32,534 nt of DNA from Acidobacteriota bacterium. GTDB lineage: Bacteria > Acidobacteriota > Terriglobia > 2-12-FULL-54-10. Made by a program: the position numbers and the translations under genes. Where the stretch lies: NCBI GenBank assembly GCA_022567475.1, contig JADFGZ010000006.1, positions 1-32,534 on the forward strand, read 5' to 3'. Positions within the stretch are counted from its first letter, which is position 1. Each line of letters starts with the position of its first letter. The notes under the pieces were generated by a model. It was not told where the DNA came from. It did not search any database and saw only the letters and a list, made by a program, of their open reading frames with translations. Shown piece by piece: positions 7,060-31,162 of the stretch.

Positions 7060-7170
7060 GCCGCGACCGCTCTGCGGCCCATAGCCTTTCGGTGATGCAC
7101 CCTCCCGTGACTAAAGCACAGGAGGGTAGGCCGACAGGGAGAGGTGAAGCCGTGGAGACTAAAGGCAGCC
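7060..7170. ncRNA. Candidate structured RNA or mobile-element terminus; strand and class unknown
   Basis: Nested complementarity: GCCGC 7060-7064/GCGGC 7074-7078; GCCTTT 7084-7089/AAAGGC 7161-7166; TCGG 7089-7092/CCGA 7131-7134; ACCCTCC 7099-7105/GGAGGGT 7121-7127 with inner GTG/CAC. GACTAAAG occurs twice. Confidence 0.4.
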
Positions 7171-7235
7171 TTTTCTCAATTGTCGCCGATGATCGAATTT
7201 TTATGCGGTTCGGTAGTAAACTAATAGCCGCACAT

Positions 7236-7261
7236 GTTTTTGAAGACTGTTTTTGAAGACT
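7236..7261. repeat. 13-bp perfect tandem duplication (GTTTTTGAAGACT x2)
   Basis: 7236-7248 and 7249-7261 are identical. Confidence 0.9.
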
Positions 7262-7608
7262 ATGGAGAAGTGGCGGGAGGAGTGAACGGTATCGGAGGCG
7301 AAGGTTCCCGCCGCGTGGTGCATGGGAATCAGTCCAAGGTGGCGCGGAACGGGCGTGCATACTGTTTGCAACAGCTTTTTTCCCAGGCAGGCGTTCTGGA
7401 CTCAAGTAGCCGCTGGGTAAAGGGGTTGGCTGGCGAGATTGCTGCAAGCTGCAACAATGGATGCGAATGAAAGATTGCCCGAATTGGTCCGCAGGCTTGA
7501 CCCGCCCGGATAGAGCGATTAGAATCTGTCGCTTCGCTTCATAATGTCGGTGTAATGTATATGCATTAGGTCTCAAGGATGAAATTTGCTCCGGAAGGAA
7601 CGTGCGGT

Positions 7609-7635
7609 TGGCGCCAGCAATTGAGGCTGGCGCCA
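7609..7635 (+). promoter_or_regulatory. Perfect 10-bp hairpin in the acpP 5' leader
   Basis: TGGCGCCAGC (7609-7618), 7-nt loop, GCTGGCGCCA (7626-7635), 60 nt before acpP ATG. Confidence 0.65.
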
Positions 7636-7694
7636 TCGGCTTGGCTCCTGCCGGTTGCCGGGACTTCGAGAATTAGAAAAAAGAGGGAGGGGGC

Positions 7695-7934
7695 ATGGCC
7701 TCTGTTGAAGAGAAAGTAAAGCAGATTATCGTGGAGCAACTTGGGGTTGACGAGGCGGAGGTGACACCCACCGCTTCCTTCGTTGACGATTTGGGAGCCG
7801 ATTCGCTGGATACTGTGGAGTTGGTGATGGCCTTGGAAGAAGCTTTTGAAATCGATATCCCCGATGATGCTGCCGAGAAGATATTGACGGTCAAGCAGGC
7901 TACAGAATACATCCAGACGCATGCAAAGGCTTGA
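7695..7934 (+). CDS. acpP: Acyl carrier protein
   Basis: 79 aa; [30 protein letters not shown] with the phosphopantetheine serine motif DSLD; purine-rich RBS. Confidence 0.97.
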
Positions 7935-8187
7935 ACCGATCTGCGCTCCGCCAGTGATGGATCTACAGTCCGGAGATCGGTGGGTCGCCAGATTGCGGAA
8001 TCGCTGCTTCGATAGTTCGCTGGTTCGATAGTTCAATGCTTCAAGGGACCGGCTGATCCTGCAGAGCAGCCGTCCAGGCGCGCGTAATCGAGGAGCAAGG
8101 ACGCCGGTGGCAGGAACTCGCCGGGGCTGGCCGGTTGCAACCACCGTCCGGCAAGTTGCAGTTTCCCGGAGAGAAGGAGCAAGCAAG

Positions 8188-9429
8188 TTGGCCAAACGAG
8201 TTGTCGTTACAGGAGTGGGCTTGGTCTCGGCTTTAGGGGTCGGGACGGAACAGACTTGGCAAGCTGTTCTACAAGGCCAGCCGGGCATCGCGCCCATCAC
8301 GCACTTTGATACAACGCAATTTTCCTGCAAAATAGCCGGTGAAGTCAAAGGGTTCGACCCGCTCCAGTTTATTGCAAAAAAAGAAGTGAAAAAGATGGGG
8401 CTGTTTATTCAGTATGCCCTGCCAGCCTCCGATTTTGCCCTGCAACAAGCAGGCCTGAAAATTACCCCCTCGATTGCCGAGCGCACGGGAGTTTTTATTG
8501 GCTCAGGGATCGGAGGGTTTGATGTGATTGAGCGCGAGCACAGCGCTCTGCTGGCTGGGGGGCCGCGAAAGATTTCGCCTTTTTTCATTCCGGCCACCAT
8601 CGTGAATCTGGCGGCGGGGCAGGTTTCTATCCGGCACGGCGCCAAGGGTCCGAACTCCGCTCCCTGTACCGCCTGCTCCTCCGGCGCTCACGCCGTCGGG
8701 GATGCCTTCAAGCTGATTTCCCGTTGTGAGGCGGACGTCATGATCTGCGGCGGCACAGAGGCCGCCATTACTCCGCTGTCGGTTGGCGGTTTCGCTTCCA
8801 TGCGTGCTCTCTCCACCCGCAACGACGAGCCGGCCCGGGCCAGCCGCCCCTTCGACAAAACCCGGGATGGATTCATCATCGGCGAGGGCGCCGGCATTCT
8901 GGTGCTGGAGGACCTGGAGTTTGCCCGCAAGCGCGGAGCCCGCATTCTGGCCGAGGTGGTCGGCTACGGCATGTCCGGAGATGCTTTTCATATCACTCAG
9001 CCCTCCGAAAACGGTGACGGCGCCTACCGGGTGATGAGCAACACGCTGGCCGACGCCCAGGTGAGCCCGGAGCAAGTGAAGTGCATCAATGCCCACGGCA
9101 CCTCGACGCCGTTTAACGACAAGCTGGAAACGATGGCGATCCGGCGCTTGTTCGGAGAGCACGCTGATCAAGTGGCTGTCAGCTCCACCAAGTCCATGAC
9201 AGGACACTTGCTCGGCGGGGCCGGAGGATTGGAAGCCGGCTTTGCCGTGCTGACCCTCCGGGATCAAATCATCCCCCCGACCATCAATTACGAAACGCCG
9301 GACCCGGAATGCGACCTCGATTATGTTCCCAACCAAGCCCGCCCGAGCCAACTGGAATATGTCCTCAGCAACTCCTTCGGATTTGGAGGGACCAACGCCT
9401 CCTTGCTGTTTAAGCGCTACGCGGAGTAA
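8188..9429 (+). CDS. fabF: 3-oxoacyl-ACP synthase II
   Basis: KRVVVTGVGLVSALG, PCTACSSGAHAVGDA, NAHGTSTPFND, SSTKSMTGHLLGGAGG, NSFGFGGTNASL. TTG start at 8188 after GAGAAGGAG preferred over ORF start 8107. Confidence 0.95.
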   Translation: MAKRVVVTGVGLVSALGVGTEQTWQAVLQGQPGIAPITHFDTTQFSCKIAGEVKGFDPLQFIAKKEVKKMGLFIQYALPASDFALQQAGLKITPSIAERTGVFIGSGIGGFDVIEREHSALLAGGPRKISPFFIPATIVNLAAGQVSIRHGAKGPNSAPCTACSSGAHAVGDAFKLISRCEADVMICGGTEAAITPLSVGGFASMRALSTRNDEPARASRPFDKTRDGFIIGEGAGILVLEDLEFARKRGARILAEVVGYGMSGDAFHITQPSENGDGAYRVMSNTLADAQVSPEQVKCINAHGTSTPFNDKLETMAIRRLFGEHADQVAVSSTKSMTGHLLGGAGGLEAGFAVLTLRDQIIPPTINYETPDPECDLDYVPNQARPSQLEYVLSNSFGFGGTNASLLFKRYAE

Positions 9430-9443
9430 AGGCACAAGCCTTT
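9428..9443 (+). terminator. Weak terminator-like hairpin overlapping the fabF stop
   Basis: AAAGGC-ACAA-GCCTTT followed by a short T run. Confidence 0.3.
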
Positions 9444-9473
9444 TGCTCGTCTAAATCAATTGGGAAAACCCCT

Positions 9474-10253
9474 ATGAAAATCATGGTTTGTATCAAACAA
9501 GTTCCCGCCAAGGACTCGACCTTGCGTCTGACGGAGGATTCCACCTGGATTCGGGAACAAGACTTGAGTTACGAAATCAATGAGCCGGACGCCTACGCTC
9601 TGGAAGAGGCCTTGCGGTTGAAGGAGAAACACGGCGGCGAGGTGGTCGTCTGCAGCGTGGGGCCGGACCGTGTCCAGCAGGTGATCCGGGAGGCTTTGGC
9701 TAAAGGCGCCGACCGCGCCATCCATCTTGTGGCGGATGGCGGCTCGCGGCTGGACAGCTACCCCGCGGCCCGGCTGATGGCCGAGGCGGTGCGCCGGGAA
9801 GGATTTGATCTGATCTGCACGGGGCTGCAATCCGATGACCTCGGTTTTGCCCAAACCGGCGTCGTGCTTGCCGAGTTGTTAGGATTGCCTCATGCCACCA
9901 TTATTATGGAAGTGCAGGCCGAAGACGGGCGGTTGAAGGTGAAGCGGGAACTGGAAGGTGGATGGTTCCAGTGGGTCCAGATGCCGCTGCCCGCTCTGCT
10001 GACGATCCAGTCCGGCATCAACAAGCTGCGGTATGCCACGCTGAAGGGCATCAAGCAGGCTAAATCGAAGGAAATCCGCCGCGTCATAGCCACCGAGTTG
10101 GGTTTGAAGGCGGAAGAGCTGGCTGGCAGACAGAAGCTCCACCGCGTTTATGTGCCGGTCAAAACCAAGCAGACCGAGTTCATCGACGGCTCACCCAAAG
10201 AGGCCGCCGCCAAACTGGTGGAGAAGCTGCAACGCGACGCCCGGGTGCTGTGA
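9474..10253 (+). CDS. etfB: Electron transfer flavoprotein beta subunit
   Basis: MKIMVCIKQVPAKDS, NEPDAYALEEALRLKE, DLICTGLQSDD, RELEGGW. Confidence 0.95.
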   Translation: MKIMVCIKQVPAKDSTLRLTEDSTWIREQDLSYEINEPDAYALEEALRLKEKHGGEVVVCSVGPDRVQQVIREALAKGADRAIHLVADGGSRLDSYPAARLMAEAVRREGFDLICTGLQSDDLGFAQTGVVLAELLGLPHATIIMEVQAEDGRLKVKRELEGGWFQWVQMPLPALLTIQSGINKLRYATLKGIKQAKSKEIRRVIATELGLKAEELAGRQKLHRVYVPVKTKQTEFIDGSPKEAAAKLVEKLQRDARVL

Positions 10254-18617: not shown

Positions 18618-18857
18618 ACGATTTGCGGGAAGGCCTTGTTTTAACCGCCTGGGCAGAATCCCCCAACGCTCGACTCTCCCAAGTCTCCTTCCACCAAAGG
18701 CATATTCCCGCTATACTGTGAGCCTTAGCAAATTAGAGAGGTCAGTGTATCGGGGGGCTTTGCTGCTCTCGGCCGTTGTGAGTTTACTTTAACGCTTTCG
18801 AGTTGCGTGTTTACGGGTTTCCGTCGGCAAGGAGCGGCAACTGTTAGCGATAGCCTC

Positions 18858-19727
18858 ATGCGCGTCTTGATCACAGGAGCGGGAGGAATGCTGGGGAAGG
18901 ACTTGGTGCCCGCCTTAAAGCCGGACCACGAGGTTCTGCCGCTGGACCGTTCGGCCTGCGATGTCACCGTCGGGGCTGAGGTCAGCCGCGTCTTTCGAGA
19001 TTGGCAGCCGGAACTAGTGGTTCATTGCGCCGCCTATACGGATGTGGACGGCTGTGAGCGGGATTCAGAGCGGGCCTTTGCGGTGAACGCGCAGGGTGCA
19101 GCGAATGTCGTTCGCGCCGCCGCGCAGGTGGGCGCTCGCGTCTTTTACATCAGCACGGATTACGTGTTTGACGGTACGAAAAAAAGTCCCTATAACGAAC
19201 AGGACCCGACGAACCCGGTCAACATATATGGCCGCAGCAAGTTGGAGGGAGAGCAGAAAACTCTGGAGCAGGACAGGGAAAACCAGAGGCACCTTTCCAT
19301 TCGCACCTCGTGGCTTTACGGGATCCACGGCGCTAACTTCATAGAGAAGATCGTAGCCGCCGCAGGGTCCCGCCCGAAGCTTGCAGTGGTGGCCGATCAG
19401 GTTGGCTGCCCCACCTGGACTGTGCATCTGGCGCGGAAGATTGCCGAGCTGGCCGGGACCTCCGCAACCGGCATCCTGAACGTCGCCGGAAGCGGGCAAT
19501 GCAGTTGGCATGAGTTGGCGCGCTCGATTGTGGAAAAGCTCAGCTTTCCAGTTGAGGTCGCGCCCATTGATTCGGTGACGGCAGGACGGGCCGCGAAACG
19601 TCCGTCCAATTCTGTTCTTGGCAGCCAGCGGTTGGAGCAAATGGGACTTGCTCCGCTGCCGCATTGGAAACAGGCGCTCGAAGAATATTTTCAACTTCGC
19701 CAGACGATGCCGGTGGCGGCTAAGTAA
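18858..19727 (+). CDS. rfbD: dTDP-4-dehydrorhamnose reductase
   Basis: MRVLITGAGGMLGKDLVPAL, HCAAYTDVDGCE, YISTDYVFDGTKKSPYNEQDPTNPVNIYGRSKLEGE. ATG 18858 preferred over 18807. Confidence 0.93.
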   Translation: MRVLITGAGGMLGKDLVPALKPDHEVLPLDRSACDVTVGAEVSRVFRDWQPELVVHCAAYTDVDGCERDSERAFAVNAQGAANVVRAAAQVGARVFYISTDYVFDGTKKSPYNEQDPTNPVNIYGRSKLEGEQKTLEQDRENQRHLSIRTSWLYGIHGANFIEKIVAAAGSRPKLAVVADQVGCPTWTVHLARKIAELAGTSATGILNVAGSGQCSWHELARSIVEKLSFPVEVAPIDSVTAGRAAKRPSNSVLGSQRLEQMGLAPLPHWKQALEEYFQLRQTMPVAAK

Positions 19728-20534: not shown

Positions 20535-20782
20535 CTACAAAACTTCCACGGATAACTGCCGCTGACGCAATCAGGGCATTGGAGAAAGCAGGATTTGTGC
20601 TTGCCCGACAGAGTGGCAGTCACAAGATTTACAAAAACCTTAAAGGGAGGAAGACAACCGTTCCCTATCACGCGGGGAAAATACTCCACCCTAAAGTCTT
20701 GAAAAGCATCATAAAAGATGTAGGGTTGGCAGTGGAACAATTTCAGGAATTACTGAAACAACTTCAAGCCCGCTTCGATTGA
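20531..20782 (+). CDS. hicA: HicA-family toxin (second module)
   Basis: PRITAADAIRALEKAGFVLARQSGSHKIYKNLKGRKTTVPYHAGKILHPKVLKSIIKDVGL; GTGA overlap with hicB stop. Confidence 0.92.
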   Translation: MTTKLPRITAADAIRALEKAGFVLARQSGSHKIYKNLKGRKTTVPYHAGKILHPKVLKSIIKDVGLAVEQFQELLKQLQARFD

Positions 20783-20787
20783 CAGTA

Positions 20788-21981
20788 ATGAAACCTCGCA
20801 TCCTCATCATCTCGCCCGTAACGCCATACCCCGTGCATCACGGGGCGGGGAGCACGATCTACGGTTATATCCTGGCTCTGCGCGAGGTCTTTGACATATT
20901 CTATGTCGGTTTTTGCCCCGAGCAGTTCCTGCGCCAGGCGCAAACCGGCCTCAACGCGTTGTGCCGGAAAGCCGTGCTCTTCCAGACTCCTCCCGCGCGC
21001 CGCTTGGATGCATTTTCCCGAACCCCGTTTTTATTTTCGAATCTTCAAAGTGATGACATGCACCGGGAGGTGGACCGTATCCTGGAGGAGGAGCGCCCGG
21101 ACTTGGTGCAGGCGGAGTATCTGGGAATGGCGGACTATGCCGCCAAGGCCCGGTGTCCCCGGATCGTTCGCGCCCACGTCCAGGAGTGGTGGCACTACTA
21201 TCTGAACTGGCGGCGCACGCAAGGATGGCGCACGCGGCTGGGGCACCTGTTCTGGTCTCTGGACTCGGTGCGGCACAATCGGCGGACGCTCGAAAGCTTC
21301 GACTGGGTCCTGGTTACTTCCGAGGAGGAGCGCCGCCGCGCGCTGGAGTTGGCGCCGGGAGCGCGGGCCGAAGCGCTGCCTTTTATGTTGATGGATTGCG
21401 AGCAGTTCCGTCCGGCTGCCACTCCTCCGCAGCAGCCGCAGATACTCTTTGTAGGGTTTTTGCCGCATACACCCAACGAGGAAGCGCTTGCTTATTTCGT
21501 GCGCGAGGAATTGCCCCTGATCCGCAACCAGGAGCCGGATGCCAGGTTGGTGGTTGTTGGAGGAGGAGCTTCCAATTTCATCAAGGGCCTGTTGCATGAC
21601 CACGACGTGGATTATCGCGGTTACGTGGAGGACCTGCGGGATGTCTATCAGCAAAGCCGTGTCTATGTCGCTCCCATAAACAGCGGAGGAGGGATTCGCA
21701 CCAAAATCATTGAAGCGATGGCGGCCGGCGTGCCGGTGGTTTGCAATTCGTTTGCTCCGCTGGGGCTTGGGCTGCTCCCGGACCACCACGTGATAGTTCG
21801 CGACACTCCTGCCGAATCGGCGGCGGCCGTTGTCCGGCTGCTTCGCGACGATGGATATTGGGGCCGCATACGGGAGTCGGCGCGGATTGTGGTGGAAAAC
21901 GCCTTTAGCTTGCAAAGGATCGGGCCGCGAATCCAGTCGCGGTATCTCCAATTTTTAGAGGGCTGCCGCCAGCCCTCCTAG
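20788..21981 (+). CDS. GT4-type glycosyltransferase
   Basis: ILFVGFLPHTPNEEALAYFVREELPLI, RLVVVGGG, VYVAPINSGGGIRTKIIEAMAAGVPVVCN. ATG 20788 (ORF from TTG 20779). Confidence 0.88.
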   Translation: MKPRILIISPVTPYPVHHGAGSTIYGYILALREVFDIFYVGFCPEQFLRQAQTGLNALCRKAVLFQTPPARRLDAFSRTPFLFSNLQSDDMHREVDRILEEERPDLVQAEYLGMADYAAKARCPRIVRAHVQEWWHYYLNWRRTQGWRTRLGHLFWSLDSVRHNRRTLESFDWVLVTSEEERRRALELAPGARAEALPFMLMDCEQFRPAATPPQQPQILFVGFLPHTPNEEALAYFVREELPLIRNQEPDARLVVVGGGASNFIKGLLHDHDVDYRGYVEDLRDVYQQSRVYVAPINSGGGIRTKIIEAMAAGVPVVCNSFAPLGLGLLPDHHVIVRDTPAESAAAVVRLLRDDGYWGRIRESARIVVENAFSLQRIGPRIQSRYLQFLEGCRQPS

Positions 21982-22023: not shown

Positions 22024-24030
22024 ATGAAAGTTGTCTACTTTGCCACAGGCACGCCGGCTGAGGTCTCCGCTGACCTGAAGCGATTAAGCTTCAACAGAAA
22101 CGGCGCTTCGCTGCGGGTGGTTTTGGGTGCAAGCCTCGCCGGGCAACTAGGTGAGTTTGCTTCGCTGCGGCCCGAACAGACGCTGTTCTATCAGGCACAT
22201 TCTGCGCCGGTTTTATGGCTCCGTCTGTGGAAGTTCCTGGGTCTTTCCCCCAATGCAGAAGTCATTTGCTTGTCCTCCCGGCAGCGATTTCGATTTTTGA
22301 AATTTATGGCGCTGACCTTGCGGGGCAAGGTGACTTTTTCAGCCAATAACGGAACCCTCGTCTCTTTCAGTTTGGGGGAATTGCTAAGGATTTGGGGAGG
22401 ATTGCTGTGGGCCTGGATACAGCAGATCCCTATTCCGCAAGGGCCTGTCTGCATTATCGGATCGGCATCGCCATCGCGCTTGAGCGCTATTGTTGCCAGT
22501 GCGCGTCAGCGTTTTCCGGAAGCCCGCATCCACGGAGTGCTTCCATCGGCGTCCGGCGTCTCTCCGACTGAACTGTTTGATTCATTCGTTTTGCTGAGGT
22601 GTCACGCGCTATTGGCTTACTTCCGGCTGTTGCCGCGATGTATCGGCAAAAGACGCTTTCAGAGGGTCATCCTGGCCTGCACGAATGAACAAGCTTCCGG
22701 TTTGAAGTGGCTGGCATGGTGGCTCCCGCTCTGGAACCTGGAAATCTATAACGAAAATATCGATGCCTTTCATGCGCGCAATCTGCGGTTGCTGGTTCGC
22801 CACTGGCTCTGGAGAAAGCGCAACAACCGCGAACTGCACCGGCAAACGCTCCCGGTAGGTGTGATGGGTTCTGCTTCGGCTTTCTACTTGAAGAAAATTA
22901 TTCCCCGGCTCCGCACCCGCTATCCGGCGGCAAAGCTGCACGGTTTTCTGCCCTCCTCTCTGGCGGGACCGGCGGCCGGCCTGTTTGATTCGGTCACGAT
23001 CCTCAGGCCGGGCATCCTCGGCGTGTTTCTGCAAACTTGGAGACTCGGCAAAACGCGCGGAGATTTCCAGTGCTGGATTATTCCCTGTACGAATGAGCCG
23101 TATCTCCGGATGAAGCTGCTGGCCTGTCTGCTGCCGCTTTCGCGGCGGCAGATTTACAATGAGCAAGCGGATGGGTTTCCTGCTCGCGACGTGCGGACGC
23201 TTTACCGGCACTTCCTGTGGCGTCTGCGAGATCGTCTTTCGTTCCAAATTGTCGCCGGGACGGCGGGAAGGAGCATGCCTCTTCGGCTTCTGCATCTCGG
23301 TTTTTTTTCGCTTCGCCTGCTGTCAGGGGCTGAGCTTTTGTTGCGCACGCGATTGCGGGCTTATCTTTCGAAACAGATCGGGCGCGCCGCTGTCTTCCCG
23401 AAGGCGAAGCAGCGCGTGGACCTCTTGTATCTCGGTTCGGAGGGGGCCGCTCACAGCTTTTTCAAGCAATCGAATTTCAATGGGCGGACCGGCCGGATAC
23501 GCCTGGTTCCGATTTCGAAAGGTCCCGGTCAACTGGAGCGGATCAATACGGCTATCGGAAGCAGCCAGGCGGACTTTATTTGTCTGATGGACAGCGAATG
23601 CAGGATGCTCCTCCCCGACTGGCTCGACCGGCTGCTGGAGACCTTTGATGAGGGTACGGCCCAGGTGGGGCCGCAGGTTGTCAGCCCCGATGGGGGCGGG
23701 TTGATCCGGGGTCTGCTGATTGGGAAAGAAGGCACGGCGCAATGGAACTCCGACAACGGTGTCTGCTGCCACTCCCAGCCGGAATGGCTGGAAGTCGATG
23801 CGCTTCCTTGGATCTGCGTGCTCCTCCGGCGCAGTGTCTTTCAACAGGTGGGTTTTTTCAGGGAATATACGGATGCAGCGGGGCAGTGGGTGGATTGGGA
23901 TTTCTGCCGGCGGCTGGCGGCGCAAGGTTTGCACTCGGTTTGCAATCAAAACGTCACGGCTGCGCACCCGGCAGCAAATGCTGTTTGTGAACCCGAGCGC
24001 CAGCTTGTGAATTCGGAGAATCGGCGTTGA
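22024..24030 (+). CDS. Multi-repeat protein with C-terminal GT2-like domain
   Basis: 668 aa. Two obvious ~130-aa repeats (aa ~141-270 and ~276-405), a diverged N-terminal copy, and a C-terminal GT2-like region (INTAIGSSQADFICLMDSECRMLLPDWLDRLLE...WVDWDFCRRLAAQG). Confidence 0.75.
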   Translation: MKVVYFATGTPAEVSADLKRLSFNRNGASLRVVLGASLAGQLGEFASLRPEQTLFYQAHSAPVLWLRLWKFLGLSPNAEVICLSSRQRFRFLKFMALTLRGKVTFSANNGTLVSFSLGELLRIWGGLLWAWIQQIPIPQGPVCIIGSASPSRLSAIVASARQRFPEARIHGVLPSASGVSPTELFDSFVLLRCHALLAYFRLLPRCIGKRRFQRVILACTNEQASGLKWLAWWLPLWNLEIYNENIDAFHARNLRLLVRHWLWRKRNNRELHRQTLPVGVMGSASAFYLKKIIPRLRTRYPAAKLHGFLPSSLAGPAAGLFDSVTILRPGILGVFLQTWRLGKTRGDFQCWIIPCTNEPYLRMKLLACLLPLSRRQIYNEQADGFPARDVRTLYRHFLWRLRDRLSFQIVAGTAGRSMPLRLLHLGFFSLRLLSGAELLLRTRLRAYLSKQIGRAAVFPKAKQRVDLLYLGSEGAAHSFFKQSNFNGRTGRIRLVPISKGPGQLERINTAIGSSQADFICLMDSECRMLLPDWLDRLLETFDEGTAQVGPQVVSPDGGGLIRGLLIGKEGTAQWNSDNGVCCHSQPEWLEVDALPWICVLLRRSVFQQVGFFREYTDAAGQWVDWDFCRRLAAQGLHSVCNQNVTAAHPAANAVCEPERQLVNSENRR

Positions 24031-24749
24031 CCCGGCTTAGCAAATATTTCTGTGTTGTTTTCTTGTTGAGTTGCGCGGTCGCAGAGATGCCTAGCGCTGC
24101 CGCAGCGGAAGAGGGCGAAGCGCCTTTTTCTCTGTTTGACGAGGAAGAGAGCTTAACGTACAGGCTTCTTTGGCCGAGCGGGGTGATGCTGGGAGAAGCT
24201 GTCTTGCGGGGCTCTTTCTCGGGAGATAATCTGCATTTTCAGCTTACGGTAGAAGCTGGCTTGCCTCAGTACAACATCAGCCACTCTTCCTCCTCCGTGG
24301 CGACGAAGGATGGCCTCTGCTCCCTCCAATTTCAGGGAAATACCCGCAGGGGATCGAAAGCTTTAGACGAGTCGATAGAATTTGACCAGACGGCACACCT
24401 GGCGCGGCGAACGAGGGGAAATCAAACAACCTCAGCGTCCATCCCGGAGTGCGCCCGCGACCCGCTGACTTTTCTTTATTATTTTCGCAACCAGCTCGCT
24501 TTGGGCAAGACCTTGGACTCGGGAACATTCCATTTGGGGGCAAACTTCAGCTTGCAGATTGAAGCGGCGGGGCCCGAAACAGTGGACGCAGGCGGGCGGC
24601 AGTGGCCTGCGGAAAAGTATCGGGTGACATACAGGGGGCCCAATTCGGAGCGAACCGTTGAACTGTGGATTTCGACCGATGCGACTCCCAAACCTGTGCG
24701 GGTCCGGGTCGCGTTTCCTCTGGCAGTATTTTCCGCCGAGTTGGAGTGA
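24027..24749 (+). CDS. Secreted DUF3108-like protein
   Basis: Signal peptide then EEESLTYRLLWPSGVMLGEAVLRG...DPLTFLYYFRNQLALGKTLDSG, resembling DUF3108; 4-nt overlap with previous gene. Confidence 0.6.
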   Translation: MTRLSKYFCVVFLLSCAVAEMPSAAAAEEGEAPFSLFDEEESLTYRLLWPSGVMLGEAVLRGSFSGDNLHFQLTVEAGLPQYNISHSSSSVATKDGLCSLQFQGNTRRGSKALDESIEFDQTAHLARRTRGNQTTSASIPECARDPLTFLYYFRNQLALGKTLDSGTFHLGANFSLQIEAAGPETVDAGGRQWPAEKYRVTYRGPNSERTVELWISTDATPKPVRVRVAFPLAVFSAELE

Positions 24750-24848: not shown

Positions 24849-26918
24849 ATGCGCATTGCGTTTTTTTCGTCCCTGAATCCGAAACCGTCCGGCATCTCAG
24901 ATTACAGCGAAGCCCTTTTGCCGCACTTGGCAACACAAGTGGACCAAGTGGACGTTTTCATCGAGGATTACGAGCCTTCTATTCCGTTGTTCTGCGACCG
25001 GCTGCGGGTTCGTCATTACCGGGAATTTGAGCCGGAGTATCGCGCCGGGCGCTATGACGCGGTGCTCTATCACATCGGTAATAATCCCTACCACGTCTAT
25101 ATCTACGATTTAGCGTTGCGGATACCGGGCGTGCTGGTGCTCCATGAATTCAACCTGCACCACCTGCTGGCTAACGTCACGATCGCCCGTCAGGATTGGG
25201 AGGGATACTTCCAGGAGGTCGAATACAATGCCGGCCCTGCCGCCCTGGAACGGGCGCAAAAAGTCCGGGAGGGCCTGCAAGAACCCGACTATGACAATAT
25301 TGCCATGAACCGCCGGTTGCTGGAACAAAGCCGGGGAGCGATTGTCCACAGCGATTATGTGGTGCGCCAAGTGCAGGAAAATGGTTTTCTTCTCCCTCTT
25401 CGCAAAATTCAGCACGGTGTCGAAATACCCGCTGTGGATGCGGGAAAGGCGCGCCGCCGGCTTGCGCGGCTCGCCGGGTTTTCCTTGGACAACGGCACGC
25501 CGGTCCTGGGCGTCTTCGGTTTCTTGAAGTCCTACAAGAGAATCCATGAGGTACTGCGGGCCTTTGCGCGCCTCTGCAAGTTGTACCCCAAAGCCAAGCT
25601 GGTGTTGGTGGGTGAGGAGCACCCGCAATATCCTCTGCGGCCCTTGATCTCAGAATTGGCCATTGACGATGCCGTCCGTATTCTGGGCTATGTGGATTTG
25701 GAAACTTTCGTGGACTGCATGGCGGCCTGCGATATCTGCGTCAACCTGCGCGGGCCCACTGCCGGAGAGACTTCCGGCAGTTTCTTGCGGGCGCTGGCGC
25801 TCGGCAAACCTACATTAGTCTCCGAGATTGGGACGTTCCTGGAGCTTCCCGACGATGTCGCCGTGAAGATTCCAGTGACTGGAAGGGAGATCGACTGGCT
25901 CTTTGAGTACATGCGGATTCTTTTGGAGGAGCCCGTGCTGGCCCGCGCAATTGGAGAACGCGGCTTGGCGTACGCGGCGCAAGAATGTTCCTGGCCGAAA
26001 GTAGCGGCAGAGTACGTTGAATTTCTCAAGCAGTGTGCCGACAGGGAGCCCGTCCGGAGCAACTCGGAGCCGAAGCCAGCCTCTGGTGTTGCTGAAGAGA
26101 ATAGTTCCCGCACGGATGTTTCCCAGGAAGAACTGGAAGAATACATCGTCGGTTTTTCTCATGCATCCCCGATGATGGAGGAGTATGTGCTGCTCCACCG
26201 CAAGCGATTAGCGCGCACGGTCGAGATCACTCCTGCCGGCCGTTCCGAAGACCGGGTATTGGAATTGGGCTGTTATCTGCATTTGACTCCGGCGCTCCGG
26301 AAGTATTTGAGGTACGGAGAAGTGCGAGGCGCATATTATGGTCCGGCGGGAAGGACCGATTACCGGGCTGCAACGGCCCCGGACGGAGAGGTGTTTGCTT
26401 GTCCCATTGACCTGTTTGATGTGGAGCGGGATCCGTTTCCGTATGCGGACGGCTATTTCCAAACCGTCTTGTGCTGCGAGTTGCTCGAACACCTGGCGGC
26501 CGACCCCATGCACATGATGGCGGAAATCAACCGCATCCTTGCGCCCGGAGGGCATCTGGTGCTCAGTACGCCGAACGTAACCAGTTTGCGCAGTGTGCAC
26601 GCCGTCCTGCTCGGTTACCACCCGGGGCTGTTCCACGCCTACATCAAGCCGGACGAAGAAGGCAGGGCGGACCCCCGGCACAGCCGCGAATACGCGCCCC
26701 GCGAAGTTGCGTTGCTTTTGGAAGCCGCCGGATTGCAAGTCATCTTGCTGGAAACAGGAGACTATCGCAGCGAGGGCTCTGTTTCCGAATCCACCGAAAA
26801 ATTGCTGGAGGCAAATCAATTCCCGCCGGAGCTGCGGGGAGAGATCATTTACTGTGTGGGACGGAAGGTCGGTCCGGTCCGGGAACGGTGGCCCAAAGAG
26901 CTATACTATTTCCCGTAG
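24849..26918 (+). CDS. Fusion: N-terminal GT4 glycosyltransferase plus C-terminal class I SAM methyltransferase
   Basis: GT4: VLGVFGFLKSYKRIHEVLRAFARL, LVLVGEEHPQY, GETSGSFLRALALGKPTLVSEIGTF. Methyltransferase: RVLELGCYLHLTPAL, FQTVLCCELLEHLAADPMHMMAEINRILAPGGHLVLSTPN. Confidence 0.85.
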   Translation: MRIAFFSSLNPKPSGISDYSEALLPHLATQVDQVDVFIEDYEPSIPLFCDRLRVRHYREFEPEYRAGRYDAVLYHIGNNPYHVYIYDLALRIPGVLVLHEFNLHHLLANVTIARQDWEGYFQEVEYNAGPAALERAQKVREGLQEPDYDNIAMNRRLLEQSRGAIVHSDYVVRQVQENGFLLPLRKIQHGVEIPAVDAGKARRRLARLAGFSLDNGTPVLGVFGFLKSYKRIHEVLRAFARLCKLYPKAKLVLVGEEHPQYPLRPLISELAIDDAVRILGYVDLETFVDCMAACDICVNLRGPTAGETSGSFLRALALGKPTLVSEIGTFLELPDDVAVKIPVTGREIDWLFEYMRILLEEPVLARAIGERGLAYAAQECSWPKVAAEYVEFLKQCADREPVRSNSEPKPASGVAEENSSRTDVSQEELEEYIVGFSHASPMMEEYVLLHRKRLARTVEITPAGRSEDRVLELGCYLHLTPALRKYLRYGEVRGAYYGPAGRTDYRAATAPDGEVFACPIDLFDVERDPFPYADGYFQTVLCCELLEHLAADPMHMMAEINRILAPGGHLVLSTPNVTSLRSVHAVLLGYHPGLFHAYIKPDEEGRADPRHSREYAPREVALLLEAAGLQVILLETGDYRSEGSVSESTEKLLEANQFPPELRGEIIYCVGRKVGPVRERWPKELYYFP

Positions 26919-27098: not shown

Positions 27099-28424
27099 GT
27101 GCCGGAGAGAGTAATCGACACAGTGCAATCAGCGAAAACTATCCGTCCACACCGCGCTCGTTTTCTCCGAACTCAGGTCCAGACCGATGGGCCATGCCGG
27201 ATCAATGTACATTGCACGATTGAGAACTCCGGTCGAATGACCTGGACAGAGCGGGCGGTGTCACGGGAAAGCGGCCCGGAGGGTGGGAGGGCAGTCGAGG
27301 TGGGACCGGTTTATCTTGGCTATCACGTCTTCGATGCCCTGACCGGACTGCTGCTGATAGACGGTGCCCGATCCAGCATGGGCGGCGACTGTAAGCCGGG
27401 AGAACAATGCGAGGCAACAGCGGAGATTCAGTTGCCTCCGGAAGAAGGCCGGTACCATGTTGTGATCTCTCCAGTAGAGGAGCAGGTTGGCTGGTTTTAC
27501 GAGTGCGGTTCCGAATATTTATTGTTGGAAGTTGCTTCCAGCCAGGAGAGTGTCACTGTGCAGCGTGTCCGGCGCACCACGCGCACGCGCATGCGCGTGC
27601 GCCGCATCCTGCGGTCGCTGTTTCGGGCGTTTTGGTATCCCTTGCGCACCCTGACGCATCGCTACTCTCTCATCTTTTCGATGGTGCGGCGAGACGTTCT
27701 GGGACGCTACCGGGGTTCGTTCGGCGGGGCTGCCTGGACCATTCTCCATCCGCTGCTGTTGATGCTAGCCTACTACTTTGTGTTTTCTGTCGTTTTGCGG
27801 GTTCGTTTCCGGGCCGAGCAGGGCTCAGCCGGATTTGTTCTCTATTTTCTTTGTGGCATGCTGCCGTGGATGGCTTTCAGCGAGGCGGTGGGGCGATCCG
27901 CCACCACCGTGATGGATCACGGTAATTTTGTCAAGCGGGTGCTCTTTCCTCTGGAGATTCTTCCTCTGAACTTGACGCTCGCGGGTCTGGTAACGGAATT
28001 ATTTGGGCTGTTGATTTTCTTTGTGGCTTTGGTGGCGCTGGGAGCGGGAATTCCTGCGACCGCGGCCTACTTCCCGCTGGTTCTCGTTCCGCAGTTTTTG
28101 CTGACCGTGGGACTCTGCTGGTTTCTGGCGGCGCTGGGAGTTTTTTTACGGGACACGGGTCATATCCTGGGATTCTTGCTTACGGTTTGGTTTTTTATAA
28201 CGCCGATCTGTTATCCGGCGACGGCGCTGCCGGAATCCTATCTCTGGCTGTTTGAGAAAAACCCGATGTACACCATCGTGGAAGCCTATCGCGCAATCCT
28301 GCTTGAAAACTCACCGCCGGATTGGGGTCCGCTCGCCACGCTGTGGGTTGTGTCTGTGGCGGCGTTTTTTGGCGGACATGCCTGGTTCTACAAAGTGAAG
28401 AAGTCTTTTGCGGATTTGATCTGA
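27099..28424 (+). CDS. ABC-2 type polysaccharide export permease (Wzm-like) with extra N-terminal Ig-like domain
   Basis: aa ~190-441: RRDVLGRYRGSFGGAAWTILHPLLLMLAYYFVFSVVLRVRF... TPICYPATALPESYLWLFEKNPMYTIVEAYRAILL. N-terminal IENSGRMTWT...VYLGYHVFDALTGLLLIDGARS...PPEEGRYHVVISPVEEQVGWFYECGSEYLLLEV. Confidence 0.85.
   Translation: MPERVIDTVQSAKTIRPHRARFLRTQVQTDGPCRINVHCTIENSGRMTWTERAVSRESGPEGGRAVEVGPVYLGYHVFDALTGLLLIDGARSSMGGDCKPGEQCEATAEIQLPPEEGRYHVVISPVEEQVGWFYECGSEYLLLEVASSQESVTVQRVRRTTRTRMRVRRILRSLFRAFWYPLRTLTHRYSLIFSMVRRDVLGRYRGSFGGAAWTILHPLLLMLAYYFVFSVVLRVRFRAEQGSAGFVLYFLCGMLPWMAFSEAVGRSATTVMDHGNFVKRVLFPLEILPLNLTLAGLVTELFGLLIFFVALVALGAGIPATAAYFPLVLVPQFLLTVGLCWFLAALGVFLRDTGHILGFLLTVWFFITPICYPATALPESYLWLFEKNPMYTIVEAYRAILLENSPPDWGPLATLWVVSVAAFFGGHAWFYKVKKSFADLI
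27581..27602. repeat. 22-bp perfect palindrome of alternating purine/pyrimidine
   Basis: GCGCACGCGCATGCGCGTGCGC equals its own reverse complement. Confidence 0.95.
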
Positions 28425-29689
28425 TGTTTGCCATTCAAGTGCGTAACGTTGCCAAGATGTACCGGCTCTATCCCGCTCCGGCTGCGCGTCTGAAGGAAAT
28501 GCTTGCCTTTGGACGGCGCTCCTATCACGAGGAGTTCTGGGCGCTGGAAGGGATCAGCTTCAATGTGGAACGGGGCGGGGTTCTGGGCATCATCGGACCG
28601 AACGGCTCCGGCAAGAGCACGCTGCTGGAGATTGTCACCGGCATGCTCGAGCCGACGCGGGGACGTGTGCTGACACGGGGCCGGATTGCCGCCCTGCTTT
28701 CGCTCGGAGCTGGCTTCAATCCGGAGTTCACGGGACGGGAGAACGTCTTTCTCAACGGCGAAATTATGGGGCTCTCCCGGCAGGAGATCGAAAGCAATTT
28801 TTCCCGGATGGAGCGCTTCGCTGAAATCGGCGATTTCATGGACCGGCCAGTAAAAACGTACTCTACAGGGATGTACGTGCGTCTGGCCTTTGCCGCCGCC
28901 ATTCATGTGAATCCGGAGATCCTGGTGGTGGATGAAGTGCTGGCGGTGGGGGATGCCATCTTCGTCAACCGTTGCATTCAGACATTCCAAGAGTTGCGCC
29001 AGCGGGGTGTCACCGTGCTGTTGGTTACCCACGACGTGGGGCTGGTGAAACTGCTTTGTGACCGGGCGCTCCTTCTGATGGACGGACACATCCTGGCCGA
29101 AGGCGACCCGGACAATGTCGTGAACCGCTACAATGGTCTTGTGCTGGAGAGGCAGCGGGCTTTCGATCAGGCGACTCCGTCGCCGATGCTTTCTGGTCCT
29201 GCAGCGGAGCCCCTGGAAAACTTGCAGTATACCTATCGGCATGGGGACCGCCAGGTAGTCGTTGTGAAGGTGGAGCTTTTGAACGAATCCAACCGTCCGG
29301 CCCAGGTGTTTCATTCCGGGGAAAGTATGAGAGTGCGCGTGGCGGTTTATTTTCGAGAGCATCATCCTTGCCCCGTGGTGGGAATGATGATTCGCACCCG
29401 GATTGGAATGGACGTTTTCGGCACCAACACGGAGTTGGAAGATGCCTCTCCGGGACCGGGGCGGCCGGGCGAATTTTGCGAGGTAACTTTCACGTTTCCC
29501 TGCTGGCTGACGCCGCAGGAATACACCTTGACGGTTGCCACCCAATCGCCCGATGGAACCAGCCATGACTGGCTGGACGGAGTACTTTCGTTTCACGTGA
29601 TCGACTCGCGCCGCATAGCCGGGGTTGCCAACCTGCACGCGCGCGTGACAACCCGCAAGTTGCCTTCGCGGTCTCCGATGCCCGCTTGA
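28424..29689 (+). CDS. ABC transporter ATPase for polysaccharide export (Wzt-like) with C-terminal carbohydrate-binding domain
   Basis: GIIGPNGSGKSTLLEIVTG, KTYSTGMYVRLAFAAAIHVNPEILVVDEVLAVGD; C-terminal Wzt_C-like region GMMIRTRIGMDVFGTNTELED...DWLDGVLSFHV. ATG overlaps permease stop (TGATG). Confidence 0.93.
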   Translation: MFAIQVRNVAKMYRLYPAPAARLKEMLAFGRRSYHEEFWALEGISFNVERGGVLGIIGPNGSGKSTLLEIVTGMLEPTRGRVLTRGRIAALLSLGAGFNPEFTGRENVFLNGEIMGLSRQEIESNFSRMERFAEIGDFMDRPVKTYSTGMYVRLAFAAAIHVNPEILVVDEVLAVGDAIFVNRCIQTFQELRQRGVTVLLVTHDVGLVKLLCDRALLLMDGHILAEGDPDNVVNRYNGLVLERQRAFDQATPSPMLSGPAAEPLENLQYTYRHGDRQVVVVKVELLNESNRPAQVFHSGESMRVRVAVYFREHHPCPVVGMMIRTRIGMDVFGTNTELEDASPGPGRPGEFCEVTFTFPCWLTPQEYTLTVATQSPDGTSHDWLDGVLSFHVIDSRRIAGVANLHARVTTRKLPSRSPMPA

Positions 29690-29722: not shown

Positions 29723-31162
29723 ATGTCTGCCAACAATCAGAAAAACACGGAACTGGCCGGGCTGCTCCACGAAATCCGGGAGCGGCTCACAAGCAAATTT
29801 GCGAGAGTGGTCCCGGAGGACCCCGAATTGAACCTGCCGTCCACCGAGCCTCTCCAGAAGTCGCAGGCGGAGGCTGGCCGGCTTGTGTCTGCGATTGGAA
29901 CTGTCAACCCACGGCCATCGAGCCTCGCCAATGATCTGATCCAGATGTGTAAAAATGCTTTTGCAAGGCTCCTGGATTGGCAGGTCCGGCCCCAGAGGGA
30001 ATTCAATCGCGCAGTGGTAGAGTCTCTGGCGGGAGTTACGGAGGTTCTCCAGGACCAGAACAGAAACTTTACGATTCTTGCCGAATCGGTTAAACATTCC
30101 AACCGCGTTTCTGAGGGATTAGGACAAGAAATCGACAACTTTGAAAAACGACTGGCCGATCTAGGTGTGCAATTTGAGGAGCAGATGAAGCTGCATCGAT
30201 GGGCTTATGACGGCGTCATGGCGCGGCAATCCTCTGCATTGCAGGATCGCACCTTTGAGCTTCTGGAAGCCCTCCAGGAACAAATTCACGAGGAGCTTCG
30301 TATCTTGCGCCAGCGTGTAACCGCCCAGGCGAGAGCGGCTCAAGCAAAACCGGATGACGCTCGCATGGTGGTTGCCGATTCGTGCGCCGGAAGCAGCGGA
30401 AAGACGACACTCCCGCCGGGAATCGACTACTTTCAATTGGAGCGGCATTTTCGCGGGACAGAGGAGGAAGTGCGTGCCCGCCAGCGCTTCTACCTTCCAT
30501 TGTTTCAGGGCCGGAAGAAGGTGCTGGATATCGCTTGCGGCCGGGGCGAATTTCTGGAACTGATGCGCGAGGCAGGGGCAGGATGCCGGGGAATTGACTT
30601 GAGCCCTGATATGGTGGGCTGTTGTTTGGAAAAAGGTCTCGACGTGGTTGAAGCAGATGCGTTCCGCTATCTGGAGACCGTGCCAGACGGCTCGTTGGAC
30701 GGCATTTTTTGCGCGCAATTTGTGGAGCATCTGGAGCCGCAGGCATACATCCGCTTGATATCCCGGTGCGTGGCAAAACTGGCTCCTGCGGGAATTCTTG
30801 CGGTGGAGACGCAAAATCCTGAGTGCCTGGCAATTTTCAGCAAGACGTTTTTTCTGGATCCTACCCATGTCCGGCCTATTCCGCCCGCCCAAATGCGGTT
30901 CCTGTTTGCCGAGGCTGGCCTGAGGAAGATCACGACACATTTTCTTTCCCCTGCGGCAGGCGGACTGGCAGTGATTCCCCAGCTCGAATCCCAGGTGATC
31001 GAAGCAGACGCGTTGCAGGCCTGGAACGCCGCTGTGATCGAATTCAACGAAACCTACTTCGGCGGCATGGACTACGCCGTCATCGGCTATCGGGCAGCCG
31101 CCGCTTCCAGCGCCGAATCTCCGGATCGGAAGAAATCGCAGAAAACACCACTTCAGGAATAA
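29723..31162 (+). CDS. Class I SAM methyltransferase with long N-terminal helical region
   Basis: KKVLDIACGRGEFLELMREAGAGCRGIDLSPDMV, SLDGIFCAQFVEHLEPQAYIRLISRCVAKLAPAGILAVETQNPE, HVRPIPPAQMRFLFAEAGL; ~230 aa helical N-terminus. Confidence 0.85.
   Translation: MSANNQKNTELAGLLHEIRERLTSKFARVVPEDPELNLPSTEPLQKSQAEAGRLVSAIGTVNPRPSSLANDLIQMCKNAFARLLDWQVRPQREFNRAVVESLAGVTEVLQDQNRNFTILAESVKHSNRVSEGLGQEIDNFEKRLADLGVQFEEQMKLHRWAYDGVMARQSSALQDRTFELLEALQEQIHEELRILRQRVTAQARAAQAKPDDARMVVADSCAGSSGKTTLPPGIDYFQLERHFRGTEEEVRARQRFYLPLFQGRKKVLDIACGRGEFLELMREAGAGCRGIDLSPDMVGCCLEKGLDVVEADAFRYLETVPDGSLDGIFCAQFVEHLEPQAYIRLISRCVAKLAPAGILAVETQNPECLAIFSKTFFLDPTHVRPIPPAQMRFLFAEAGLRKITTHFLSPAAGGLAVIPQLESQVIEADALQAWNAAVIEFNETYFGGMDYAVIGYRAAAASSAESPDRKKSQKTPLQE

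Follow-up and report, generated by a model that had tools for sequence, protein, structure and literature searches.

Tandem relatives of the GT9 N-terminal half encoded beside glycosyltransferases in Acidobacteriota: a probable non-catalytic scaffold for glycan assembly

The DNA analysed here (the window; 32,534 nucleotides of contig JADFGZ010000006.1 from an Acidobacteriota bacterium) contains a polysaccharide cluster in which one open reading frame, starting with ATG at 22024, encodes a 668-aa protein. This protein is composed of three tandem copies of a domain of approx. 135 aa, here named REP, followed by a helical tail and the remains of a GT2 domain; homologs that are 54% and 47% identical to it keep the frame. 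The features of the locus, with the evidence for each where applicable, are as follows:

18807..19727, + strand: RmlD, dTDP-4-dehydrorhamnose reductase (family matches)
20779..21981, + strand: TIGR03087 (stp1)-like GT4, the conserved partner gene (E 2.9e-36)
22024..24030, + strand: 668-aa protein with three REP domains and a degenerate GT2 domain (open reading frame; homologs with the same frame)
22024..22428, + strand: REP copy A, aa 1-135, diverged (hhalign to copies B and C, AF2 model, iterated HMM)
22438..22836, + strand: REP copy B, aa 139-271 (Smith-Waterman score to copy C)
22849..23244, + strand: REP copy C, aa 276-407 (Smith-Waterman score, AF2, Foldseek)
23245..23373, + strand: hydrophobic/amphipathic helical tail, aa 408-450 (models, hydropathy, position in homologs)
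23389..23988, + strand: degenerate GT2 domain, aa 456-655 (partial PF00535 match; comparison with eight intact GT2 domains)
24027..24749, + strand: DUF3108 protein, 4-nt overlap with the REP gene (same place in L033-L036)
24849..26918, + strand: GT4-methyltransferase fusion
27099..28424, + strand: Wzm-like ABC-2 permease with a ~165-aa N-terminal extension
28322..29689, + strand: Wzt ATPase with a Wzt_C domain, true start probably near 28424
29723..31162, + strand: methyltransferase

The order of genes after REP (DUF3108, GT4-methyltransferase, Wzm, Wzt, methyltransferase) is the same in the window and in the relatives L033-L036. The DUF3108 gene lies inside a polysaccharide cluster, and its place is kept in these four relatives. 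In sequence (RINVHCTIENSGRMTW...GRYHVVISPVEEQVGWFYECGSEYLLLEV), the ~165-aa extension of the Wzm-like permease is suggestive of a beta-sandwich and reminiscent of the carbohydrate-binding domains of the Wzt_C type; judging by length, it is present in L033 and L036 and absent from the shorter open reading frames of L034/L035, and no Pfam match to it was found at E<=1.

The original prediction described two clear tandem repeats sharing a set of motifs and a weaker N-terminal copy, all of which are indeed present. Copies B and C are about 42% identical and align with a Smith-Waterman score of 232, compared with a maximum of 56 among 1000 shuffles. Copy A is at noise level in plain pairwise alignment (scores of 28-29 against B and C, equal to the shuffle mean and not significant), yet it proves to be a true diverged copy by profile: when profiles of seven A domains and of 16 B/C domains are compared, hhalign gives a P of 3.9e-6, whereas the minimum P among 40 column-reversed or shuffled nulls was 0.05. 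The iterated HMM also picks up copy A, and the order of strands and helices is common to A, B, and C in the full-length AF2 model, a weak model overall (pLDDT 61, pTM 0.34). Given the B/C score, the profile match of A and this shared order, A, B, and C are three copies of one domain. Across 18 B/C repeats, R22, N104, E105, D108, H121, and R125 (segment numbering of copy C) are invariant, so that window-type repeats are marked by N-E-x-x-D and H-x-x-x-R; the NExxD motif is missing from window copy A. The tail after the last repeat is helical in the models, coincides with the hydropathy peak of the protein and keeps its position in homologs, and it is a possible membrane-association segment. It is less hydrophobic in the window protein than in several relatives.

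No significant match naming REP was obtained in sequence searches of Pfam, NCBIfam, and PDB, and no paper describing it turned up in literature searches, so that in this sense it is as unrecognised as originally stated. Nonetheless, it does have a distant known relative. The AF2 model of copy C with the tail, built from 14 aligned repeats (pLDDT 82), has as its best Foldseek match in PDB the GT9 enzyme heptosyltransferase II of E. coli (1psw; E 1.7e-3, TM 0.42), closely followed by other folds, including GT-B enzymes of GT41 (HMW1C/NGT). Since no PDB match fell below E 1e-3 and the TM-score is modest, the fold evidence alone is suggestive; no coherent match came from searching by fold with the full-length model. 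At the level of profiles, a broad REP set (42 copies from across the phylum) matches a profile built from the GT9s of related genomes with an hhalign P of 7.5e-9, and the alignment is confined to GT9 columns 13-131, i.e., the N-terminal half. Seven control families, including GT4, SDR, methyltransferase, Wzt, GT2, and DUF3108, gave P values of 0.016-0.89 against the same REP profile, which argues against a generic Rossmann effect, and 40 shuffled or reversed GT9 nulls gave a minimum P of 0.21. The window repeats match the phylum-wide REP set (P 2.5e-13), but directly against GT9 they do no better (P 0.0055) than against the methyltransferase control (0.0075), and their link to GT9 is thus transitive, running by way of the wider REP family and the fold. 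Genome searches point the same way: the weakest matches of the REP profile in genomes of the phylum fall mostly in the N-terminal halves of GT9s (eight of nine open reading frames read, all eight with PF01075). As profile-profile comparison, fold model, and genome searches agree, we consider REP distantly related to the N-terminal Rossmann domain, the acceptor-side half, of a GT-B enzyme resembling the GT9 heptosyltransferases. PF01075 itself matches neither the window protein (E<=1) nor the REP members, and no Pfam GT28 match was found in REP.

The relationship does not extend to catalysis. In HepI, D13 is the proposed catalytic base of GT9 (PMC5713226). All 26 of 26 GT9s carry the corresponding Gly-Asp after strand 1, whereas it is missing at that site from every one of 88 REP domains, the single REP with GD having it in the linker ahead of strand 1. 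The donor-binding C-terminal half was found in none of the REP sequences scanned, i.e., REP lacks the half that binds the ADP-sugar. The C-terminal region of the protein was originally said to resemble a GT2 domain with an unusual LMDSE in place of the DxD; the likeness to GT2 stands, albeit weakly, but the idea of a merely altered DxD does not. PF00535 matches aa 456-655 with E 7e-4 and 20 bits, compared with a curated cut-off of 23.3, and the match begins only at profile position 51. Compared with eight intact GT2 domains, the region lacks the first strand, the DNGSxDGT nucleotide-binding motif, and N-N-D-M; at the DxD position, the window protein has DSE (LMDSE), relatives have LLDPE, LMDSC, or ILDSQ, and intact GT2 domains have NNDM. 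In L036, L037, and L038, the GT2 domain is not matched at all. Judged from these losses, aa 456-655 is a decayed GT2 domain, and since the GT9 Gly-Asp and the donor half are missing as well, the 668-aa protein is probably non-catalytic. One further protein, L059 (G074), joins two REP copies that have diverged to a GT2-like stretch, itself degenerate, and to the beginning of a GT4-like region; GT2 decay may therefore have occurred on more than one occasion.

The family is not restricted to the window. Seven homologous proteins (L032-L038), all from Acidobacteriota, share the plan of an A copy followed by a variable number of REPs; an alignment-based search named five relatives in Acidobacteria metagenome-assembled genomes, and a single-sequence scan of genome contigs with the whole protein gave no match. 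Repeat-profile searches across Acidobacteriota genomes uncovered many further copies, and 88 REP domains were collected in all. The broad-family search covered Acidobacteriota genomes and plasmid records, the latter yielding only partial matches with E of at least 0.05. The number of copies per protein ranges from one (L184, L185, and L193) to about seven (L143), and adjacent copies in L143 are 84% identical, which points to recent duplication. NExxDCF is kept in terminal repeats across the phylum, and the E is lost in internal copies of long arrays (NAxLDC). Many REP proteins end in a hydrophobic segment, e.g., LLFPFRFLYLLLW. A different subtype of single-copy REP (MKYFFRRKVP...) occurs in L136, from the same genome as the window (G000:C181:23798-24283), and in L152, where it adjoins a class V aminotransferase resembling cysteine desulfurase; this aminotransferase shares 72% identity across the two genomes. 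In L186, L187, and L189, the REP gene follows a different class V aminotransferase.

A frequent neighbour of REP is a TIGR03087-like GT4, often a GT2-GT4 fusion, which lies immediately upstream with a short gap or overlap at 20 loci from several families (the window, L032-L038, L139, L140, L142-L145, L147, L184, L185, and L193, together with L146 and L148 at contig edges). This GT4 is complete, with both halves present. Moreover, L039 and L149 combine REP, GT2, and GT4 in one polypeptide, L192 is a REP-GT4 protein, and the arrangements are permuted between lineages (REP-GT2-GT4, GT2-GT4 with REPn, and GT4 with REPn-GT2). In L192, positions 7165-9516 form one open reading frame, a REP-GT4-GNAT acetyltransferase fusion. 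The coupling is not universal, since some REP genes sit elsewhere: L136, L137, L138, L141, L150, L151, L152, L153, L186, L187, and L191 lie outside the pattern, as do L188-L190 at or near contig edges, and some of these exceptions (L136, L152, L186, L187, and L189) adjoin a class V aminotransferase. At L140 (6915-8027) and L141 (7761-9125), a GT9 gene adjoins the REP gene, its Pfam match covering mainly the C-terminal part. As for the proposal that the protein works with the downstream ABC exporter, a link of REP to Wzm/Wzt does exist in the window, L033-L036, and L139/L140, but the tighter and wider link is to the GT4.

Several known systems resemble this arrangement in part. GT9 heptosyltransferases (PF01075; WaaC/WaaF, 1psw) have an N-terminal Rossmann half homologous to REP by profile and fold; REP differs in lacking the catalytic Gly-Asp and the C-terminal donor half, in occurring in tandem, and in sharing a polypeptide or a locus with GT2/GT4. 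Functionally, the closest analogy is Alg14/EpsE, in which a separate GT-B N-half serves as the membrane anchor of its catalytic partner (PMC4973528); REP, likewise, is a free GT-B N-half encoded near a glycosyltransferase, and its predicted hydrophobic tail may associate with the membrane. However, Alg14/EpsE descend from MurG and depend on a catalytic C-half made separately (Alg13/EpsF), whereas the GT4 partner of REP has both halves, the ancestry of REP points towards GT9, and the copies are in tandem; REP is therefore not a member of the Alg14/EpsE family. The partner itself is a sub-threshold relative of the TIGR03087 (stp1) GT4s of PEP-CTERM/XrtA systems, from which it differs in falling below the curated cut-off, in its linkage to REP, and in the Wzm/Wzt exporter of the window cluster. 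To our knowledge, the modules of multi-module O-antigen and capsule glycosyltransferases are catalytic, whereas tandem non-catalytic halves of the GT9 type were not among the families matched here. A Wzm/Wzt cluster with modular glycosyltransferase proteins is nonetheless shared with ABC transporter-dependent O-antigen/capsule assembly, e.g., of Klebsiella O4/O7 (PMC11231755).

Within this context, we hold with moderate confidence that the REP array is a membrane-associated, non-catalytic, acceptor-binding scaffold that acts with GT4/GT2 in lipid-linked glycan assembly. This reading rests on a REP chain without known catalytic residues, a possibly membrane-seeking tail, and an intact GT4 that is usually adjacent, and acceptor binding is the role of the N-terminal domain in GT-B enzymes (PMC5713226). 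A GT9-type acceptor half would have become free-standing, been copied in tandem, and been stripped of catalysis, giving in the window a scaffold of 668 aa with three acceptor-type domains, a tail probably in contact with the membrane, and the remains of a GT2. Such an array probably takes hold, at the inner membrane, of a growing glycan linked to undecaprenyl, or of a glycolipid, and would present it to the neighbouring GT4 (in other lineages, to an intact GT2) before export by Wzm/Wzt. Of the 'multi-domain glycan assembly or scaffold enzyme' originally suggested, the scaffold fits best; 'enzyme' does not, because neither the catalytic base nor the donor half of GT9 is present and the nucleotide-binding motif of the GT2 region is gone.

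The conserved N-E-x-x-D and R-H-x-x-W-R could nevertheless mean chemistry. Two neighbouring REPs, or a REP and the GT2 remnant, might pack into a joint site of GT-B-like form whose catalytic set (N-E-x-x-D/R-H) would be new. In favour of this, N, E, D, H, and R are invariant over the 18 B/C repeats and NExxDCF persists in terminal repeats throughout the phylum. We consider this rather improbable, as a nucleotide-binding motif was not seen, single-copy proteins (L184, L185, and L193) indicate that pairing is not required, the E is lost in inner copies of long arrays, window copy A lacks the motif, and the full-length model has no coherent fold match. It is also unlikely, on present evidence, that REP binds no sugar and is solely a protein-protein adaptor that brings together the GT4, GT2, methyltransferase, and exporter. 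Recurring fusion and adjacency with GT2/GT4 fit such a role, as does the variable copy number, adaptors being typically tandem arrays; however, the conserved polar residues gather near the end of the domain instead of being spread over it, and GT9 ancestry suggests ligand binding. A reading of the gene as a remnant in decay, left over from a glycosyltransferase cluster, has the decay of the GT2 domain in its favour but is very improbable: seven relatives keep the open frame and the invariant repeat residues across large protein divergence, and copies have been repeatedly amplified in other lineages, e.g., in L143. Whole-gene decay was rejected on the basis of this conservation.

Under the preferred scaffold reading, the arrays might further act as a multi-site holder or ruler, in which the copy number, from one to about seven, sets the number of acceptor sites per GT4/GT2 and hence chain length or throughput, although this extension is speculative and we give it little weight. 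Overexpression of the EpsF N-domain alters chain length in Streptococcus thermophilus, but the effect is not counted as support here because the authors of that study favour an indirect effect (PMC7023835).

These results provide a first reading for an unannotated domain of many Acidobacteriota, bacteria that are abundant in soil and whose surface glycans are poorly known. They suggest that half of a glycosyltransferase has been reused as a tandem, apparently non-catalytic module, and the permuted REP/GT2/GT4 fusions predict a physical complex with these enzymes. If the ruler reading is true, REP copy number would govern the chain length or throughput of the surface glycans of Acidobacteria.
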